A stretch of DNA of 64,000 bases from Candidatus Gracilibacteria bacterium CG17_big_fil_post_rev_8_21_14_2_50_48_13 (GCA_002783265.1 PFFG01000006.1:1-64000), one strand, 5' to 3'; counted from the first letter of the stretch, positions 23,397 through 32,390 are shown. Numbers and translations: made by a program. Notes: generated by a model not told the origin, from the sequence alone.

Positions 23397-23477
23397 GAGT
23401 AAATGCCCCAGCTTTGCAGAAAAAAGATTGCAAGAGCACACAGGCTCCATATAATGCACCTGCTTAACGTTCCCTGC

Positions 23478-23562
23478 GCCGAAGTGGTGGAATTGGTATA
23501 CACGCGCGACTCAAAATCGCGTTCCGCAAGGATTGAGGGTTCGAGTCCCTCCTTCGGCACCA
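23478..23562 (+). tRNA. tRNA-Leu (CAA anticodon)
   Basis: Class II tRNA with acceptor GCCGAAG / CTTCGGC, anticodon loop CTCAAAA, a variable arm, GTTCGAGTC T-loop, A discriminator and encoded CCA. Confidence 0.96.
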
Positions 23563-23733: not shown

Positions 23734-26430
23734 ATGTCTTTACGCAATACCGCATCAAATCCTCCTTCTGAAAAATTCTGGGAAATGGATTTCGAAGCAG
23801 TGCTCAAACACTATACAAGCAGCAGGGCCGGCCTCTCCAAGGCTGAAGCGGAGCGTCGACTTTCCGTCTACGGTCCTAATGCCCTCCCGCCTGCCGCATC
23901 CCGCCCTGCTATTTTGCGCTTTCTCGCTCAGTTCAATAATGTCCTCATTTATGTCCTGCTCACTTCAGCGCTGATCACAGGCCTGGGAGCTCACTATCTG
24001 GATACCGCCGTTATTCTAGGTGTCGTGTTTCTCAATGCGCTCATTGGGTTTATACAGGAAGGCAAGGCCGAACGGGCCCTCGCCAGCATGAATGCCCTAC
24101 TCGAAGCACGGTGCACGGCGCTCCGTGGTGGCGAAAAGGTCGATTTGGCTGTGGAACAGCTTGTTCCTGGAGACATTGTGCTCCTTCAGGCGGGAGATAA
24201 GATTCCGGCGGATTTACGTCTTCTGGAAAGCGTGCGATTTGCCGTTGATGAATCCATGCTTACGGGCGAATCCATTCCCGTTGAAAAAAAAGTTGCTGCC
24301 ATACAGACGGCTGATATATTGGCGGAACGCATAAACATGGGCTATTCTGGCACGCTTGTGACGCGTGGTACGGCCACGGGAATCGTCACAGCAACGGGGC
24401 CTCAAACGGAGTTGGGGAACATTTCTCGTCTGCTCGATACCACCGAATCGATAAAAACTCCTTTACTGCAGGTCATCGATCGCTTTGGAGGGTCCCTTTC
24501 CCTTGTGTTATTTCTTGTGGCTGCAGGAACCTTCGCCGTGGGAACACTGGTGCGCGGGCTTGCTCTGGATACGATGTTTTTAGCAGCGGTGGGACTTTTT
24601 GTTGCCGCTATCCCAGAAGGGTTACCGGCAATAATCACCATAACTCTAGCACTTGGCGTCCGCAAAATGGCGCAAAAAAATGCCGTTGTGCGCAAACTCC
24701 CTGCGGTCGAGTCTCTCGGAGCCGTTACCGTGATTTGTACGGACAAAACAGGCACCCTTACACAGAATGCCATGACCGTCACCATGGCCGAGACAAGGCA
24801 AAGCGCATACACTTTTGCAGGTTCCGGGTACGACCCGCATGGCATCATTAGTCCCGCCGCAACAGATGAACTGCGCACACTTCTTGAGCTTGGCGTGCTC
24901 TGCAATGATGCGGGCCTTCTGCCCCCTACAGAAGGACTTGGAGCGAAAGGGTGGCATATTGTAGGAGACCCCACTGAGGCAGCCCTGCTTGTTGCCGCTC
25001 AAAAAGCAGGCATTGAACAAAAAGCACTGCTTGCACAGCTTCCCCGCACAGATGCACTTCCCTTCTCATCGGAGACAAAAGTTATGGTGACTCTGCATCA
25101 CGATCATCAGGGCGCGTGTTTTATTGTGATCAAAGGAGCTACAGAAGAGATCCTTAAACGCTGCAGCACCTTACCAGAGGAGACCACAGAAGCCCATTGG
25201 CTTGAGCGGTCTGCCCAGCGCGCCGAGCAAGGTGAGCGCACGCTGGGATTTGCTATCAAACACCTGCCGAAAGCCCAGGAAATTCTCCAAGAACGGGATG
25301 CGGAGCATGGCTTTAGCTTTGTCGGCTTTGTGAGCATTAGCGACCCCCCACGCGAAAGTGCGAAAAGAGCTGTTGCACAGTGCCGATCCGCAGGAATTGT
25401 CGTCAAAATGATTACGGGTGACCATGCCCTAACGGCGGAAGCCATCGCCCAGCAAGTTGGCATCGAATTCCTGGGACCTGCCGTAACAGGAGAAATGCTG
25501 GAAGGTGCGTCAGAGAAGGAATTGCTGCGCCTTGTACGCAGTACCAATGTATTTGCCCGTGTAAACCCAGAGCACAAATTACGACTGGTAGAGGCCCTGC
25601 AAAAAGACGGAGAACTAGTTGCTATGACGGGTGATGGCGTGAACGACGCCCCAGCACTCAGGCGTGCGGACATCGGCATTTCCATGGGAAAAAATGGCAC
25701 GGAAGTTGCCCGTGAAGCCAGTCGTATGGTTCTTTTAGACGATGCCTTCGAGACCATTGTGTCCGCCGTTTCAACAGGGCGCACAGTCTACGACAATATC
25801 ATGAAATCCCTTGTCTTCATCCTCCCAACGAGCTTTGCCGAAGCACTTCTTATTGTGCTCGCCATTGCACTGGGATTTCCCCTCCCCATTACTCCTCTTC
25901 AAATACTCTGGGTCAATCTTGTCACGGAAGTGAGCCTTTCCCTCGCCTTAGCCATGGAAGAGGGAGAAGCAGATATAATGCAGCGCAAACCACGCGCAAA
26001 AAACGCCGGACTCTTTGGCGCGCAGGAAACACTCCGTACCACCTTAATCACAGTGATATTTATTACCCTTTCCTTGATTTCCTTTGTAGTAACGCAGAAT
26101 ATGCAGGGATCGTCGCTCATCCTCTCCCAAACTGTCATGGTGAACATGGTCGTCCTGCTTGAAATTGTCTGTTTACTGAGTACGCGCTCACTCTCTGAGA
26201 CCTTTATACAAAAAAATCCATTGGTCGGCAATCGGCCCATTCTGCTTTCTATATCGATCGTTTTTGTGCTCCAACTCTTATTTACCTACCTACCGGTGAT
26301 GCAAGATCTTTTTGGCACAACACATATTGGTGTATCAGAATGGATTTTGCTTCTTGCCCTGAGTCTTCTTGGGTTTCTTCTCATGGAACTTGAAAAACCC
26401 CTCAGGCGTTATCTGCTCCGTAGGAAATAG
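23734..26430 (+). CDS. cation-transporting P-type ATPase (P2 type, Ca2+/Mg2+-like), 898 aa
   Basis: Full-length P2-type pump. An N-terminal cation-ATPase domain (FEAVLKHYTSSRAGLSKAEAERRLSVYGPNALP) is followed by membrane helices. The actuator TGES is near 177, PEGLPA in M4 near 295, the phosphorylated Asp in CTDKTGTLTQ near 335, ITGDHALTA near 555, and the hinge TGDGVNDAPAL near 631. Six C-terminal helices include LWVNLVTEVSLSLALAMEE. The ion is probably Ca2+ by overall pattern, not proven. Operator-like palindrome upstream suggests metal- or stress-responsive control. Confidence 0.93.
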   Translation: MSLRNTASNPPSEKFWEMDFEAVLKHYTSSRAGLSKAEAERRLSVYGPNALPPAASRPAILRFLAQFNNVLIYVLLTSALITGLGAHYLDTAVILGVVFLNALIGFIQEGKAERALASMNALLEARCTALRGGEKVDLAVEQLVPGDIVLLQAGDKIPADLRLLESVRFAVDESMLTGESIPVEKKVAAIQTADILAERINMGYSGTLVTRGTATGIVTATGPQTELGNISRLLDTTESIKTPLLQVIDRFGGSLSLVLFLVAAGTFAVGTLVRGLALDTMFLAAVGLFVAAIPEGLPAIITITLALGVRKMAQKNAVVRKLPAVESLGAVTVICTDKTGTLTQNAMTVTMAETRQSAYTFAGSGYDPHGIISPAATDELRTLLELGVLCNDAGLLPPTEGLGAKGWHIVGDPTEAALLVAAQKAGIEQKALLAQLPRTDALPFSSETKVMVTLHHDHQGACFIVIKGATEEILKRCSTLPEETTEAHWLERSAQRAEQGERTLGFAIKHLPKAQEILQERDAEHGFSFVGFVSISDPPRESAKRAVAQCRSAGIVVKMITGDHALTAEAIAQQVGIEFLGPAVTGEMLEGASEKELLRLVRSTNVFARVNPEHKLRLVEALQKDGELVAMTGDGVNDAPALRRADIGISMGKNGTEVAREASRMVLLDDAFETIVSAVSTGRTVYDNIMKSLVFILPTSFAEALLIVLAIALGFPLPITPLQILWVNLVTEVSLSLALAMEEGEADIMQRKPRAKNAGLFGAQETLRTTLITVIFITLSLISFVVTQNMQGSSLILSQTVMVNMVVLLEIVCLLSTRSLSETFIQKNPLVGNRPILLSISIVFVLQLLFTYLPVMQDLFGTTHIGVSEWILLLALSLLGFLLMELEKPLRRYLLRRK

Positions 26431-26446
26431 GTCATACGAGCACCAA

Positions 26447-26910
26447 AATAACAAAAGCCGTCATTGGGTAATGACAGGCTGTTTGTTTTTGTTTCGGTTG
26501 GAGGCAAAAGTTCGTGCCCCCGGGAAACAGTTCAGAAGTTGACGAGACTCCCCTTGTTTAGCTCTCCACCTTACTTTGGTAATACTATATCCCGTATCCC
26601 AAGGGTCGCTTTGGCGAGTAGACTGGACAGTGTTTGAAACTCCCTCCAAAGAGAAAGACTCCGTACCGATCAGCTCAGCAGTAGAAGCGGAGCACCAGGT
26701 GGTCACCCGGGCGTCCTGAGCATAAAGTAGAGAAAGATCAAAGATGGACGATTCCCCGAGGGGGAAGAGCCCATGCCCCTTGGGAGCCGGGAGACCACGT
26801 TGGTACGTATCTCCGATTGACTCCGCGTCAAGGCGGTGGGCGTCTATCCTTCATCTTTACCTGCTTTACACTGGCTCTGGTTGGAAAGGAACATTTGAAG
26901 TTTTGATCTT
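26447..26910 (-). ncRNA. structured non-coding RNA, copy A (about 465 nt)
   Basis: No protein-coding content is shared with its homologue, but several blocks are. These are the 5' end ATGAAGATCAAAACTTCAAA, then CGGTACGGAGTCTT, GGGAGTTTCAAACAC, CCCTTGGGAT-CGGGATATAG and a hairpin GGGGGCA / TGCCTCC around CGAACTTT. It has its own promoter and ends in an intrinsic terminator (AGCC-GTCATT, ACCC loop, AATGAC-GGCT, then U-rich). A helix near the front (AAAGATG...GACG with CGTCCATCTTT) has a differently sequenced but still paired counterpart in copy B, indicating conserved structure. Copy A carries about 100 extra bases. I recognise no known RNA class (not tmRNA, RNase P or 6S by eye). Confidence 0.82.
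26456..26480 (-). terminator. terminator of RNA copy A
   Basis: Minus strand AGCCTGTCATT / AATGACGGCT with ACCC loop, followed by TTTTGTTATTTT. It also lies about 25 bases after the upstream ATPase stop. Confidence 0.88.
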
Positions 26911-26916
26911 CATCGC

Positions 26917-26944
26917 ATTATAGCGAACTGAAATCTTTTAGCAA
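26917..26944 (-). promoter_or_regulatory. promoter of RNA copy A
   Basis: Minus strand TTGCTA, 16 bp, TATAAT (-10 at 26917-26922, -35 at 26939-26944). Spacing and position match the promoter of copy B. The 100 bases from here to 27050 show nothing else. Confidence 0.85.
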
Positions 26945-27050
26945 CTTTCTACACTGGTAAGTATAGCATAAAAGTGGCGCAATACGCAAAATCAGCTCGC
27001 AAGACCTCATGAAAAGCCAGTTCGGAAACTTCAATTTTTACCATAAGATC

Positions 27051-27101
27051 TTGACAATCTCACAATAATATCGATGATAACGGGGATTTGAAAGGAGGTG
27101 A
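27051..27101 (+). promoter_or_regulatory. promoter and strong ribosome-binding site of zinc-site protein gene
   Basis: TTGACA (27051-27056) is followed after 17-18 bp by a GATAA-containing -10. AAAGGAGGTGA (27091-27101) is a full-length Shine-Dalgarno sequence six bases before the ATG at 27107. This is the only perfect site I see in a window whose genes nearly all lack one. Confidence 0.8.
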
Positions 27102-27106
27102 CTTGT

Positions 27107-27418
27107 ATGAGCCACCAAGTTGAATCAGTGCCGGAAGGCAAAAAATCCTACAGTGCATCTGAAGATGCATTCGAGCTCCTGAATAGTGCGCAAAGTATTT
27201 TTGAGGCAGCCACAACAGGCAATCTCATTGATCTTGATGCAGATGAGCTTCAACTGTTCCAAAGGCTAATTGGCGTCCTAGGAATTGTAGAATACCCCTG
27301 CGATGCACACTGTGGAACTGTTGTTCTCATCAGCTCTGCGGACGTAAGTGAGCTCAAGGAAAACGAGAAAGTCTTTTGCAATAAAAAATGCGAAAAGAAT
27401 ATTCTCAAAAAACCGTAA
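27107..27418 (+). CDS. small protein with CxxxC pairs, 103 aa
   Basis: Unknown family. The N-terminal two thirds are acidic and helical (SEDAFELLNSAQSIFEAATTGNLIDLDADELQLFQRLIGVLGIV). The C-terminal third has CDAHCG and, after 25 residues, CNKKCEKN, a plausible four-cysteine zinc site with a basic tail. The ATG is fixed by the perfect Shine-Dalgarno upstream; a GTG three codons earlier lies inside that site. The gene is flanked by divergent RNA copy A and, downstream, its own terminator and the DUF2339 gene. Confidence 0.8.
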   Translation: MSHQVESVPEGKKSYSASEDAFELLNSAQSIFEAATTGNLIDLDADELQLFQRLIGVLGIVEYPCDAHCGTVVLISSADVSELKENEKVFCNKKCEKNILKKP

Positions 27419-27426
27419 GATTTTGG

Positions 27427-27451
27427 AACCGCCCCCGTGGCGGTTTTCTTT
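27427..27451 (+). terminator. intrinsic terminator
   Basis: AACCGCC / GGCGGTT stem followed by TTCTTTTC. Confidence 0.9.
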
Positions 27452-27495
27452 TCAATAATGTAAAATGAACACACTTATAGTTTTCTCAGACCGGC

Positions 27496-30084
27496 ATGAT
27501 CCCAAAAAGTATAGAAGAGCAGATAGAGATTCTTACCAAAGAGCTTTCTCAGCAAAATACTTCACTGCAAAAAGTACGTGCCCTCCTGACGAATTCTGGA
27601 CTTGCAGGTATCCTCCTTGGACTGTCTTTTCTGCTAACTGGATATGGGAACGCCCTTCCTGCTGCGATTATCATTCTTCTCAGCGTTTATTTGATTGTTG
27701 CATCTAGTAGCATACTGTCTTTCACTACACAAAGAGAATATCAACCTACCAACTCACCCAATTCCTCCCCAGTTGTTACACCAACTGAACCTACAGAAAC
27801 TATGCAGGATGCCATTGCGAATTCAGGTGTTACCTCGCTCACACCACCCCCCACTCCGCCCGAGACAGCACCCCAACCTTCGAATAGAGAAAGTTTTGAA
27901 GCAAGACTTGGCACAAAGTGGTTTAGTATAGCAGGAGTTATAATCCTCATGATTGGTGTCGGATTTTTTATCAATTCCGCTATTGAGTATGGCTGGATTA
28001 CACCTCTCTGGCGAATTCTTCTCGGTACACTTCTTGGAGCCGGACTCCTCACAGTCGGGTACAGATCTACACGTGATCATGCCCTTCTGTCCTGGGGGAC
28101 ATCACTTATGGCTGGTGGACTTGCGCTAATGTATTTTATGATTTACGCATCATACCATTTCCCTGAATATCAAGCAGCAACCGGTGTATCCCTGAGTGTA
28201 GATATTATTCTCCTCATTTTAGCTTCATCGCTTGGCATATTCCTCGCGCTTCGGAAAAACAACCAACTTGTCCTCGGTGAAGCCTTCACATTAGGATATC
28301 TCACCGTACTATTAGGTGAAACATTTGGTATTATGACGTTTATCTATCTCTTAGTACTTGCACTTGGAGTTACTCTTATCTTGTTCTGGAAAAAGTGGAC
28401 TATGCTTGGACTTTTAGGCCTATGTATCAGCTATGGTGTATATGCCTATTTAACAAGTACCGGTCATAGCGATATACTACTTCACAGTAGCGTGCTTGGG
28501 GTGCTCTTCTTCACTTTTTATTTACAAGGCTACTTTCTTCCACAGGCAAATAACTCAACTGACTCTCTCTTTATCACAATAGCAAATGGAGGAAACGCCT
28601 TGCTCTTCTTCGTATTTTCTCAACAGCTTTCTGGTGCAATAAATACATTTATATCTGCAGCAGGCTTGGCCCTTGTCGCTGTTCTCTATTTTCTCCAATT
28701 CAGAGCAAAGACCACAACAAAAGAAGTACAAATAGTCTCCACTTTTGCCGGTGTGTTCTTCATAAACATCGCATTAACTCTTCTTCTTCCCTTTGAATCC
28801 TACCCTCTGCTCTTTGCACTAGGCGCTGTTGTATCTTTCTGGCTCTACAAGAAAACAAGAATAACAACGTGGCCGAGTATCGGGACATTGCTTATAGGCG
28901 CCTCAGGCTATAGTTCTTTGCATCTCATGGCACCATATATTTTTGCAACTCACGGTCTTCCTATTTTTGAATTCTGTATACTGATTGGATCAAGCATTCT
29001 CTTCTTGGCGATTCAAGCACTCAGTCCTTCTGAGGACTCCCCCTTCGCGCAAAATGTACGTATCGTTACTTCTGCTGCGGGCTATTTGGGGACATGTTTT
29101 CTCCTTGCTGCTGGGATAACTACTGTACACCCCATTGCTCCAGCCCTAGAAACAAATGTTGCTATCGCCTTACTCATAGTATTCATGCTTGTATTCCGAG
29201 GAAAAAACCCGCACTTTGCTCTCCAGAGCCTATTGCTCTCTGGCTTTGTTGTCATGCGACTTGTTTTCATTGATAGTTGGCAGCTAGTTCCTCTGAACCC
29301 GAGTTCATTACTCCTACCTGGATCAACGTATATAACTGTATTTATCCCAGCAATTTTTGGCATGATCCTTCTGCATAATCAGTCTCAAAATAACAACACA
29401 TTGTACGTCTCAATTTTTCCAGAGATACAAGCAGTCCTTGCTTGGAGCATTTGTCTCCTTTTCGCCTATTGGGCAACATTAGAAGCGTGGCCATCGCCAC
29501 TTCTGCTTCTCTTTTTTCTTACACTCGTCAGTCTTCTGTGTCTTATACAAAAGCATAACCAATTTGTCCAACAATCCATTGGGGTTTCCATCTATATACT
29601 CTTTTGTGCACTGATCAATACACTGACGTTTACATCCGATCCAAGTCTAAGCATCGTCAATTTTAGTACACCACTCATCTACTTTTTTTCGATGCTGATT
29701 CCAGCTTTGGGTGGACTATTACAAGCATATATTTGGCACAATAAAGTGAAAACTCCCCAATTTGACCTTGTGCGGGACTTGTATATTGGAGGATCAACAC
29801 TTGTACTTCTGATGACCGTTTATGCACTTGCTACAAGCTACATAGTATCAATAGGCTGGTCCCTTATTGCGATATTGCTCATAGCGTTTGGCTTTACAGC
29901 AAATATGCGACGCATTCGCATTGCTGGCCTTGCACTCATGTCTGTCGTCTTGTTGAAAGTATTTGCACTTGACCTTACTTCCCTTCTTCCTGGGTATCGA
30001 ATTTTGTCTTTCATTTTATTGGGCGTTCTTTTCCTCTTTGTTTCCTTTCTCTATAGCAAAAACCGAGATACCTCAAAAGGCTAA
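27496..30084 (+). CDS. DUF2339 multi-pass membrane protein, 862 aa
   Basis: Very hydrophobic protein with well over twenty predicted membrane helices. A short N-terminal coiled helix (EEQIEILTKELSQQ) and two helices precede a Pro/Thr-rich loop (about 80-130). The hallmark DUF2339 segment follows: SFEARLGTKWFSIAGVIILMIGVGFFINSAIEYGWITPLWRILLG. Function of the family is unknown. Its base composition is more A/T-rich than most neighbours. It lies between the two RNA copies. Confidence 0.9.
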   Translation: MIPKSIEEQIEILTKELSQQNTSLQKVRALLTNSGLAGILLGLSFLLTGYGNALPAAIIILLSVYLIVASSSILSFTTQREYQPTNSPNSSPVVTPTEPTETMQDAIANSGVTSLTPPPTPPETAPQPSNRESFEARLGTKWFSIAGVIILMIGVGFFINSAIEYGWITPLWRILLGTLLGAGLLTVGYRSTRDHALLSWGTSLMAGGLALMYFMIYASYHFPEYQAATGVSLSVDIILLILASSLGIFLALRKNNQLVLGEAFTLGYLTVLLGETFGIMTFIYLLVLALGVTLILFWKKWTMLGLLGLCISYGVYAYLTSTGHSDILLHSSVLGVLFFTFYLQGYFLPQANNSTDSLFITIANGGNALLFFVFSQQLSGAINTFISAAGLALVAVLYFLQFRAKTTTKEVQIVSTFAGVFFINIALTLLLPFESYPLLFALGAVVSFWLYKKTRITTWPSIGTLLIGASGYSSLHLMAPYIFATHGLPIFEFCILIGSSILFLAIQALSPSEDSPFAQNVRIVTSAAGYLGTCFLLAAGITTVHPIAPALETNVAIALLIVFMLVFRGKNPHFALQSLLLSGFVVMRLVFIDSWQLVPLNPSSLLLPGSTYITVFIPAIFGMILLHNQSQNNNTLYVSIFPEIQAVLAWSICLLFAYWATLEAWPSPLLLLFFLTLVSLLCLIQKHNQFVQQSIGVSIYILFCALINTLTFTSDPSLSIVNFSTPLIYFFSMLIPALGGLLQAYIWHNKVKTPQFDLVRDLYIGGSTLVLLMTVYALATSYIVSIGWSLIAILLIAFGFTANMRRIRIAGLALMSVVLLKVFALDLTSLLPGYRILSFILLGVLFLFVSFLYSKNRDTSKG

Positions 30085-30097
30085 ACACACATGAATA

Positions 30098-30456
30098 AAG
30101 AAAAAAGCCCGCATTGGGTAATGTGGCTTTTGTCTGTGTTTTGGCGGAGGCAAAAGGTTTCGTGCACTCCTAGAAACATGTGTTTTTGACGCTGACGAGG
30201 CGGCGGTTTTTCCTCAACCGTACTTCGGTGATGCTATATCCCGCATCCCAAGGGGCGCTTTGTCGGGAGTCGAAGACGGTGTTTGAAACTCCCCATAAAG
30301 AGAAGACTCCGTACCGCAATTCCCAGCAGTAGTGGCGGAAAATGTGGGGTCACCACACTTCCTGTTCGTACAGTAGAGAGAGACAAACGTACAGGCAGCG
30401 CGCTTATCTCTCTCGGCTGAATCTCTGTGCAAAGGAGCATTTGAAGTTTTGATCTT
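30098..30456 (-). ncRNA. structured non-coding RNA, copy B (about 360 nt)
   Basis: Homologue of the RNA at 26447-26910, same strand, 3.5 kb away. The 5' end, CGGTACGGAGTCTT, GGGAGTTTCAAACAC, the CCCTTGGGAT-CGGGATATAG block, the GGAG-GCA / TTGC-CTCC hairpin and the ACCC-loop terminator are all kept. The front helix is GAGAGAGA / TCTCTCTC here, where copy A uses unrelated but also complementary bases, which is compensatory change. Overlapping frames do not encode the same peptide as copy A, so it is not protein coding. Confidence 0.82.
30103..30131 (-). terminator. terminator of RNA copy B
   Basis: Minus strand AAAAGCC-CATT / AATG-GGCTTTT with ACCC loop and U tract. Also suitable to stop the convergent DUF2339 transcript. 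Confidence 0.88.
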
Positions 30457-30462
30457 CATTGC

Positions 30463-30490
30463 ATTGTAACGGGTGAAATTTTTTTGGCAA
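30463..30490 (-). promoter_or_regulatory. promoter of RNA copy B
   Basis: Minus strand TTGCCA, 16 bp, TACAAT (-10 at 30463-30468, -35 at 30485-30490). Confidence 0.82.
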
Positions 30491-30593: not shown

Positions 30594-32390
30594 ATGACGA
30601 TTTTTTTCGGGTTCTGGAAACCACTCTGCATTCTCCTCGCCCTTGGCCTTGGACTTTGGACAGCTCAAAACACAGCACTGTCTGTGACATTTTTTGGATT
30701 TGCCATGATCCTCGGCGGATATCAGCTGGTGTACGACATGGCACAGTCGATTCTCAAAAGGCAGTTTGTCCTCGATTACATTGCCTTTGCTGCCATGCTG
30801 ACGGCAGCACTTATGGGCGAGTGGCTTGTGGGAAGCATTATTGCCCTCATGCTTTCCACGGGCGAACAACTCGAAGCTTATGGAGAGCAAAAGGCAAAAG
30901 GAGCGCTTTCCCACCTCCTCTCGCGGATACCCCATCAGGTCACCGTACGCACAGATACCACGACAACGGTTCGAATGCCCCTCGATGCCGTTGAAGACGG
31001 CATGATCCTCGTGATCAAAAAAGGTGAGATGATTCCTGTGGATGGTGCGCTTTTAGAGGGACAAGCACTCATTGACGAAGCCTCTGTTACGGGTGAAGCA
31101 ATGCCTGTTGAGCGGCAGGCTGGTGGGTTACTGCGCGCAGGAACGGTGAACGTTGGAGAAACTATCCTTATGCAAGCAAGCAGTAGCTTTCAAACCAGTA
31201 GCTATGCCCATCTCGTGCATCTCGTAGCAGAAAGCCAGGAACAAAAAGCACCACTTGTTCGCCTTGCAGATCAGTATTCCACCGCCTTTACCGGGATAAC
31301 GTTTTTACTCTGTCTTGTCACCTATTTTGCAACGGGCGATATGGTACGCGTGCTTGCCGTGCTTGTTTTGGCAACTCCTTGCCCACTGATTATTGCGGCG
31401 CCCATCGCCTTTATTGGTGGAATCAACGCTGCGGCCAAAAAGCGTATTATTGCGAAACACCCCGCGAGCCTTGAAGTACTTGCGCGCATTTCCGACCTCG
31501 TTGTAGACAAAACGGGCACCATCACGCTTGGTGTACCAACGCTCGTACGCACAGAAGTCCTGCACACTTTGCTTCCCGCCAAAGTGGGACTCCGTATTGC
31601 CGCAAGTCTAGAGCAATTTTCTCTGCACCCTTTTGCAAAAGCACTTCTTGCTGCTAATGGCGACGGTGCTGTACTGCTTGCTCCCACAGATATTCATGAA
31701 GAGATTGGTGCAGGTATCGAAGGTACTTTCAACGAAATGCGCTACCGTGTACAAAAGACGCCCTCCAGTCACATGGCCGTCGATCTTTGCCGTGTTGATG
31801 AAAAAGGAACACTTCCACTGCTGCGATTTCACTTCGAAGACACTATGAAGTCCACAAGTAAATCAACGCTCGGTCACCTGTTTCATCATAAGGTGCACAT
31901 GCACATGCTGACGGGTGACAAGGAGGCAACCGCAAAACACGTTGCAGCGGACGTGGGGATTCCGCTCAATATTGTTTCAGAAACCACACCCGAAATGAAG
32001 CGCACCTATTTGCGTGAGCTCAAAGCCTCGGGTCATACGGTGGGCATGGTCGGTGATGGCATAAACGATGCACCTGCCCTCGCGGAGGCTGATGTCAGTT
32101 TAGCCTTTAGTCCTGAAGAGCAAACCGCGGCAACAGATGCGTCAGACATAGTCCTTCTGGGTAGCGGCATGAACATGCTGGCAGATGCCTATCATATTGC
32201 GAGACGCACCGTGCGTGTTGCCAAACAGGCCATGCTCTGGGGTATTGGACTGAGTATTGCTGGCATGCTTGGAGCCGCACTTGGTCACATTCCACCGCTC
32301 TATGGTTCCCTACTCCAGGAAAGTATTGACGTAGGCGTCATTCTCTACGCTCTACGGGCATCCGTTGCCCCAAAAAGAAAGGAGGTCTAA
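30594..32390 (+). CDS. heavy-metal P1B-type ATPase, 598 aa
   Basis: P1B metal pump lacking any N-terminal HMA or Cys-rich metal-binding domain. Seen are the actuator EASVTGEAMPVE near 160-172, the membrane metal motif TPCPL near 260 (TPC instead of CPC), the phosphorylation site DKTGT near 304 and the P1B-specific HP in SLHPFAKAL near 344. MLTGD and the hinge VGDGINDAPALAEADV (about 485) follow. TPC-type pumps form a minor subgroup whose ions are uncertain. The stop overlaps that of the convergent ABC-F gene by four bases. Confidence 0.92.
   Translation: MTIFFGFWKPLCILLALGLGLWTAQNTALSVTFFGFAMILGGYQLVYDMAQSILKRQFVLDYIAFAAMLTAALMGEWLVGSIIALMLSTGEQLEAYGEQKAKGALSHLLSRIPHQVTVRTDTTTTVRMPLDAVEDGMILVIKKGEMIPVDGALLEGQALIDEASVTGEAMPVERQAGGLLRAGTVNVGETILMQASSSFQTSSYAHLVHLVAESQEQKAPLVRLADQYSTAFTGITFLLCLVTYFATGDMVRVLAVLVLATPCPLIIAAPIAFIGGINAAAKKRIIAKHPASLEVLARISDLVVDKTGTITLGVPTLVRTEVLHTLLPAKVGLRIAASLEQFSLHPFAKALLAANGDGAVLLAPTDIHEEIGAGIEGTFNEMRYRVQKTPSSHMAVDLCRVDEKGTLPLLRFHFEDTMKSTSKSTLGHLFHHKVHMHMLTGDKEATAKHVAADVGIPLNIVSETTPEMKRTYLRELKASGHTVGMVGDGINDAPALAEADVSLAFSPEEQTAATDASDIVLLGSGMNMLADAYHIARRTVRVAKQAMLWGIGLSIAGMLGAALGHIPPLYGSLLQESIDVGVILYALRASVAPKRKEV

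Follow-up and report, generated by a model that had tools for sequence, protein, structure and literature searches.

The 64,000-nucleotide (nt) stretch of Candidatus Gracilibacteria bacterium CG17_big_fil_post_rev_8_21_14_2_50_48_13 analyzed here (GCA_002783265.1 PFFG01000006.1:1-64000; hereafter, the window) carries two related units on the minus strand, 3.5 kb apart, whose predicted transcripts we designate RNA A and RNA B. A first-pass annotation had read them as two copies of an undescribed structured RNA, each with a promoter and terminator to itself, and the sequence tools applied here support that reading. The units and their control elements are the following.

26452..26913, minus strand: RNA A, predicted transcript of ~462 nt, ends within a few nt (promoter/terminator scan; homologous unit 26951-26446; fold z -4.0)
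30098..30459, minus strand: RNA B, predicted transcript of ~362 nt (promoter/terminator scan; homology with A; fold z -2.9)
26917..26944, minus strand: promoter of A, TTGCTA-16-TATAAT, conserved between A and B together with part of the spacer
30463..30490, minus strand: promoter of B, TTGCCA-16-TACAAT
26892..26914, minus strand: invariant 5' block of A, with a small 5' hairpin GAAG/CTTC at 26911-26897
26450..26479, minus strand: intrinsic terminator of A, stem 26477-26458, apex ATTACCCAAT
30098..30129, minus strand: intrinsic terminator of B, stem about 30129-30105, apex as in A

A predicted transcription unit in two copies

Aligned from predicted start to terminator, RNA A and RNA B are identical at 246 of 352 ungapped positions. 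RNA B is also the sole genome-wide blastn match of RNA A (73% identity, E 3.6e-33), and neither blastn nor a covariance model, R1, found a third copy in the genome. The relationship is between units of 462 and 362 nt, close to the 465 and 360 nt first estimated, and every sequence block that the first-pass annotation had named as common to the two occurs in both copies; the 5' block of B (30460-30438) differs from that of A by one base. Under sensitive pairwise blastn the homology splits in two: 26951-26875 of A aligns with 30497-30423 of B, and 26742-26446 of A aligns with 30387-30097 of B. The region between them is a front helix, where A has ~100 extra nt. Overall, homology extends from 7 nt upstream of the -35 box into the terminator T-tract (26951/30497 to 26446/30097). 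Therefore, the copied piece looks like a transcription unit. Judged by their sequences, RNA A and RNA B are true paralogs.

The promoter scan recovered the TTGCyA - 16 bp - TAyAAT element previously assigned to each unit; both sites match 10 of the 12 sigma-70 consensus bases with a spacer of 16 nt. A promoter of this form (TTGCAA-16-TATAAT, 23428-23455) is also found ahead of the tRNA-Leu gene that starts at 23478. As a class, promoter-like sites are not enriched in the region (12 versus 9.2 in shuffles), and weight is therefore placed on position and on conservation between A and B. The common terminator loop was likewise recovered as ATTACCCAAT in both units, and the terminator of B can also be read on the plus strand, as a terminator for a DUF2339 gene. 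Thus, both copies have in sequence the promoter and terminator of their own that are expected of an RNA gene, conserved between them.

The neighboring genes are all on the plus strand.

23734-26430, plus strand: P-type ATPase gene, calcium-type cation pump, adjoining A, its end convergent with the 3' end of A
27098..27418, plus strand: 106-codon open reading frame (ORF), running divergently from RNA A, unmatched in Pfam and NCBIfam
27496..30084, plus strand: DUF2339 membrane protein gene (E 1.3e-45), between the copies and convergent with B
30594-32390, plus strand: P-type ATPase gene, heavy-metal pump, adjoining B

The product of the 106-codon ORF has a Cys-containing C terminus (YPCDAHCGT, FCNKKCEKN) and may be a partner of the RNA.

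Secondary structure and coding potential

The predicted helices of the two RNAs are listed from the 5' end, with pairing probabilities taken from the partition function.

26733..26858, minus strand: front helix of A, pairing 26858-26841 to 26750-26733 around an insert that only A has (26840-26751), probability 0.82
30376..30414, minus strand: front helix of B, pairing 30414-30401 to 30389-30376, no insert, probability 1.00
26689..26716, minus strand: hairpin P3 of A, GACC apex, probability 0.89
30337..30362, minus strand: hairpin P3 of B, GACC apex, probability 0.92
26540..26684, minus strand: conserved core of A (model R1), with P4 26676-26661/26630-26616, P5 26657-26651/26645-26640, and P6 26602-26594/26585-26576
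30193..30332, minus strand: conserved core of B, with P4 30324-30309/30279-30265, P5 30305-30300/30294-30289, and P6 30251-30243/30234-30225
26490..26529, minus strand: hairpin P7 of A, outer TGTTTC/GAAACA, inner GGGGGCA/TGCCTCC, inner probability 0.99
30137..30178, minus strand: hairpin P7 of B, outer TGTTT/AAACA, inner GGAG-T-GCA/TGCCTCC, inner probability 0.86

Each single strand folds better than its dinucleotide shuffles (z -4.0 for A and -2.9 for B), and none of 200 column shuffles of the two-copy alignment folds as well as the alignment itself (z -5.1). In both RNAs, a mean pairing probability of at least 0.82 is reached by the front helix, P3, P6, inner P7, and the terminator. The front helix had been said to keep pairing while its bases change; indeed, the A and B helices are almost unrelated in sequence, and both pair. 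The insert at its tip, about 100 nt found in RNA A only (26840-26751, minus strand), folds by itself into at least one strong hairpin (GGAGATACG...CGTGGTCTCC).

Within the 145-column core, 97% of the cells of P4 and P6 are paired, and five pairs are changed on both sides, four in P4 (A-U to G-C, G-C to U-A, A-U to U-G, and U-G to G-C) and one in P6 (A-U to G-C). Shuffles of the core alignment gave a mean of 83% paired cells and 2.6 double-sided changes, reaching the observed values in 8 and 18 of 500 trials, respectively, and sliding the P4/P6 partners by 1-3 columns lowers pairing to 34-53%. The pairing probability of P6 is 0.92 in A and 0.86 in B, and that of outer P4 is 0.34 and 0.06; the P6 loop GGGATATA is invariant. 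The value of 0.00 obtained for P5 of A is uninformative, since the search by string hit a preceding CUUUCUC (26736); the minimum free energy fold of A contains P5.

Conservation between the two cores is slightly higher at unpaired positions (62 of 78 identical) than at paired ones (45 of 62). A base-pairing regulatory small RNA (sRNA), in which invariant single strands and loops would pair with target mRNAs and the remainder would serve as scaffold, could produce such a pattern, and the invariant loop GGGATATA, the invariant strand TTTCAAACAC, and the stand-alone promoter and terminator would all suit it. However, 460 nt and many helices would make an unusually large sRNA of this kind, and loops may be conserved just as well because they bind protein or form tertiary contacts. 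A base-pairing regulator seems unlikely to us, but it is, ahead of a ribozyme or ornate assembly, one of the two main rivals of the reading favored below.

The A/B alignment contains frame-breaking indels of 1, 2, 4, and 16 nt, and a long protein is therefore unlikely. The earlier statement that overlapping frames give unrelated peptides fails for one 31-codon frame, which encodes similar peptides (FSLEGVSNTV... and FSLWGVSNTV..., in full FSLEGVSNTVQSTRQSDPWDTGYSITKVRWR versus FSLWGVSNTVFDSRQSAPWDAGYSITEVRLR); it holds insofar as this frame is interrupted on either side, by a deletion of 1 nt and an indel of 4 nt, and A and B share no start codon in it. Were the core to encode a short protein, with structure secondary, this frame would be the candidate: its BLOSUM score is 113 versus 70-88 for other frames, and its single-base codon changes are synonymous in 7 cases and nonsynonymous in 4. 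Yet this signal was equaled by 91 of 2000 column shuffles, and part of the synonymous changes falls in paired columns (P4, P6), where structure also explains them. The frame has no obvious Shine-Dalgarno sequence, no Pfam match within the cutoff, and no plasmid tblastn match. We consider a short coding sequence very unlikely.

Search for relatives

At gathering score, Rfam 15 returned only tRNAs over the window, and with lax filters it gave nothing credible for either copy searched alone, in agreement with the first-pass view that the units match no known RNA class. The best subthreshold match, for B only, was the threonine operon leader (18.4 bits versus a cutoff of 55), the likeness lying in a terminator hairpin followed by a U-run, with essentially just the terminator stem aligning. 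A cis-regulatory leader or riboswitch was rejected, as no codirectional minus-strand gene lies downstream of A or B. Group I and II introns were rejected for the lack of an Rfam match and for the intergenic position of each copy with its own promoter and terminator. RNase P RNA, transfer-messenger RNA (tmRNA), 6S RNA, signal recognition particle (SRP) RNA, and other Rfam families were rejected as the identity of A and B for the lack of a model match.

Among the genomes searched, the family and order to which this bacterium belongs are represented by this genome alone; therefore, the RNA is an orphan, and its covariation is read from two sequences. Model R1 scores the two copies at 171 and 166 bits and found no credible homolog in 353 genomes of the class, 380 of the phylum, or 40 relatives searched with lax filters. 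The wider family anticipated from a model scan of related genomes did not materialize, with no third sequence among the 353 class or 380 phylum genomes. Two 18-bit R1 matches in class genomes were dismissed as chance because they lie inside protein-coding frames. In 288 class genomes, blastn gave three chance matches of 22-25 nt and no homolog. The 5' block, with 3 mismatches allowed, had four other matches in 353 genomes, none with a core nearby, and the exact core motif had four in GTDB contigs, none alignable much beyond the motif; a GTDB match, L013, was rejected because by eye it resembles an EF-Tu gene read in antisense. Five motif scans of IMG/VR gave matches covering the motif alone and no homolog, blastn found no match in phages, and plasmids yielded a 34-nt Thermus match (E 0.1). 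A literature search on structured RNAs in Patescibacteria or Peregrinibacteria found no relevant paper. By sequence comparison, the term "undescribed" is supported, and the "RNA class" so far consists of two paralogs in one genome.

Two copies 3.5 kb apart, not found in any related genome searched, might be regarded as remnants of a mobile element (an intron, a retron, or similar) instead of a cellular RNA gene. Against this stand the preservation of promoter and terminator in both copies, the lack of a third genome copy and of an Rfam intron match, the chance level of the matches in phages, plasmids, and IMG/VR, and the window's long ORFs, among which no reverse transcriptase, transposase, or phage gene was recognized by eye. 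A mobile origin is accordingly given very little credence.

Proposed role and known counterparts

RNA A and RNA B are very probably a real pair of noncoding RNA genes, whatever their mechanism. Because promoter, terminator, helices, and invariant blocks are kept in both, both copies appear to be under selection, and the duplication appears to be old. Our favored reading, which includes the mechanism and which we hold at about even chances, is that of a tandemly duplicated, independently transcribed, lineage-restricted structured noncoding RNA gene whose product is a trans-acting protein-binding or scaffold RNA. Transcription from the tRNA-type promoter would give a stable 360- to 460-nt RNA closed by the 5' hairpin and the terminator stem. 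The variable outer helices would be structural arms, and the constant P4-P6 core would be the working part, with its loop GGGAUAUA and the strands CUACUGCUG, UUUCAAACAC, and CAAAGCG. Most likely, the RNA would work in trans, by binding protein or as a scaffold, and both paralogs might be kept for a difference in dose or in the arm with the A-specific insert.

Several points weigh against this reading. The antisense A/B alignment also beats shuffles (z -3.2), and the fold energy of B is ordinary for the window (rank 59 of 320). P4 is weak in single-sequence ensembles (0.04-0.34), as is P5 of B (0.17), and in a competing register CGGU would pair with ACYG, displacing inner P4. The covariation comes from two paralogs, on which the structure was also partly drawn by eye; no homolog was found in another lineage, so the two sequences fall below what R-scape can use. 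The trans-acting ribonucleoprotein (RNP) role is put forward as an inference.

In a bolder version, the pair would found a class of large structured RNAs, perhaps catalytic or RNP-forming, that either arose in this lineage alone or survived nowhere else, and that is present as two length variants from an old duplication in a reduced 1.28-Mb genome; this version is tentative and rather doubtful. Few large structured RNAs are known beyond the housekeeping set, and the biochemistry of several is unusual. The maintenance of two diverged copies of a 360- to 460-nt RNA gene with tRNA-like promoters in a small genome suggests a function worth its cost. RNA A and RNA B also illustrate how orphan RNAs escape family-based annotation where an order has one sequenced species.

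Among housekeeping RNAs, tmRNA and RNase P RNA resemble A and B as stand-alone structured RNAs of similar length. Nevertheless, class A RNase P RNA (RF00010) has no match in either copy at E values up to 10, neither copy matches the tmRNA model (RF00023), and ARAGORN finds no tmRNA in the window. The genuine genes lie elsewhere in the genome, both above cutoff (RNase P RNA, G000:C1:221264-221671, 160.7 bits; tmRNA, C1:21568-21991, 92.8 bits). The regulatory 6S RNA is also a stand-alone RNA and is duplicated in some bacteria, but it is a single long bulged hairpin that mimics an open promoter, whereas A and B are multibranched and about twice as long or more, with no match to RF00013 at E values up to 10. 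SRP RNA (RF00169 and its clan) likewise matches neither copy at E values up to 10, and no domain-IV apex (GGAAGCAGC) was seen in their sequences.

A model search of the whole genome detected no 6S RNA, and the small bacterial SRP RNA model gave just a doubtful 22-nt match (E 0.74; L082 1501-1522). The SRP RNA of this genome may be diverged or may lie in its missing part. One could thus ask whether A and B are a diverged housekeeping RNA (6S or SRP RNA) overlooked by Rfam models in this lineage, all the more since some candidate-phyla-radiation bacteria have RNase P RNAs scoring below model cutoffs (PMC8172020). The above-cutoff RNase P RNA and tmRNA of this genome, the lack of 6S and SRP matches or apex, and a multibranched molecule of 362-462 nt unlike the 6S hairpin render this very improbable.

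Another comparison is with the ornate RNAs OLE, ROOL, and GOLLD, which measure about 600 to over 800 nt (PMC9723947, PMC12286853). RNA A and RNA B are shorter, have no Rfam match to these families, were not seen next to phage or known RNP genes (none of the window's long ORFs was recognized by eye as a phage gene; no phage library was run), and were found in one genome only. That they might work in the same way, as a ribozyme or a self-assembling ornate RNA, is an analogy that we judge improbable at 360-460 nt, even if size, multihelix fold, and block arrangement speak for it. What the pair has in common with OLE, ROOL, and GOLLD is the architecture of a noncoding RNA of several hundred nucleotides, with many helices and invariant blocks set within variable arms.

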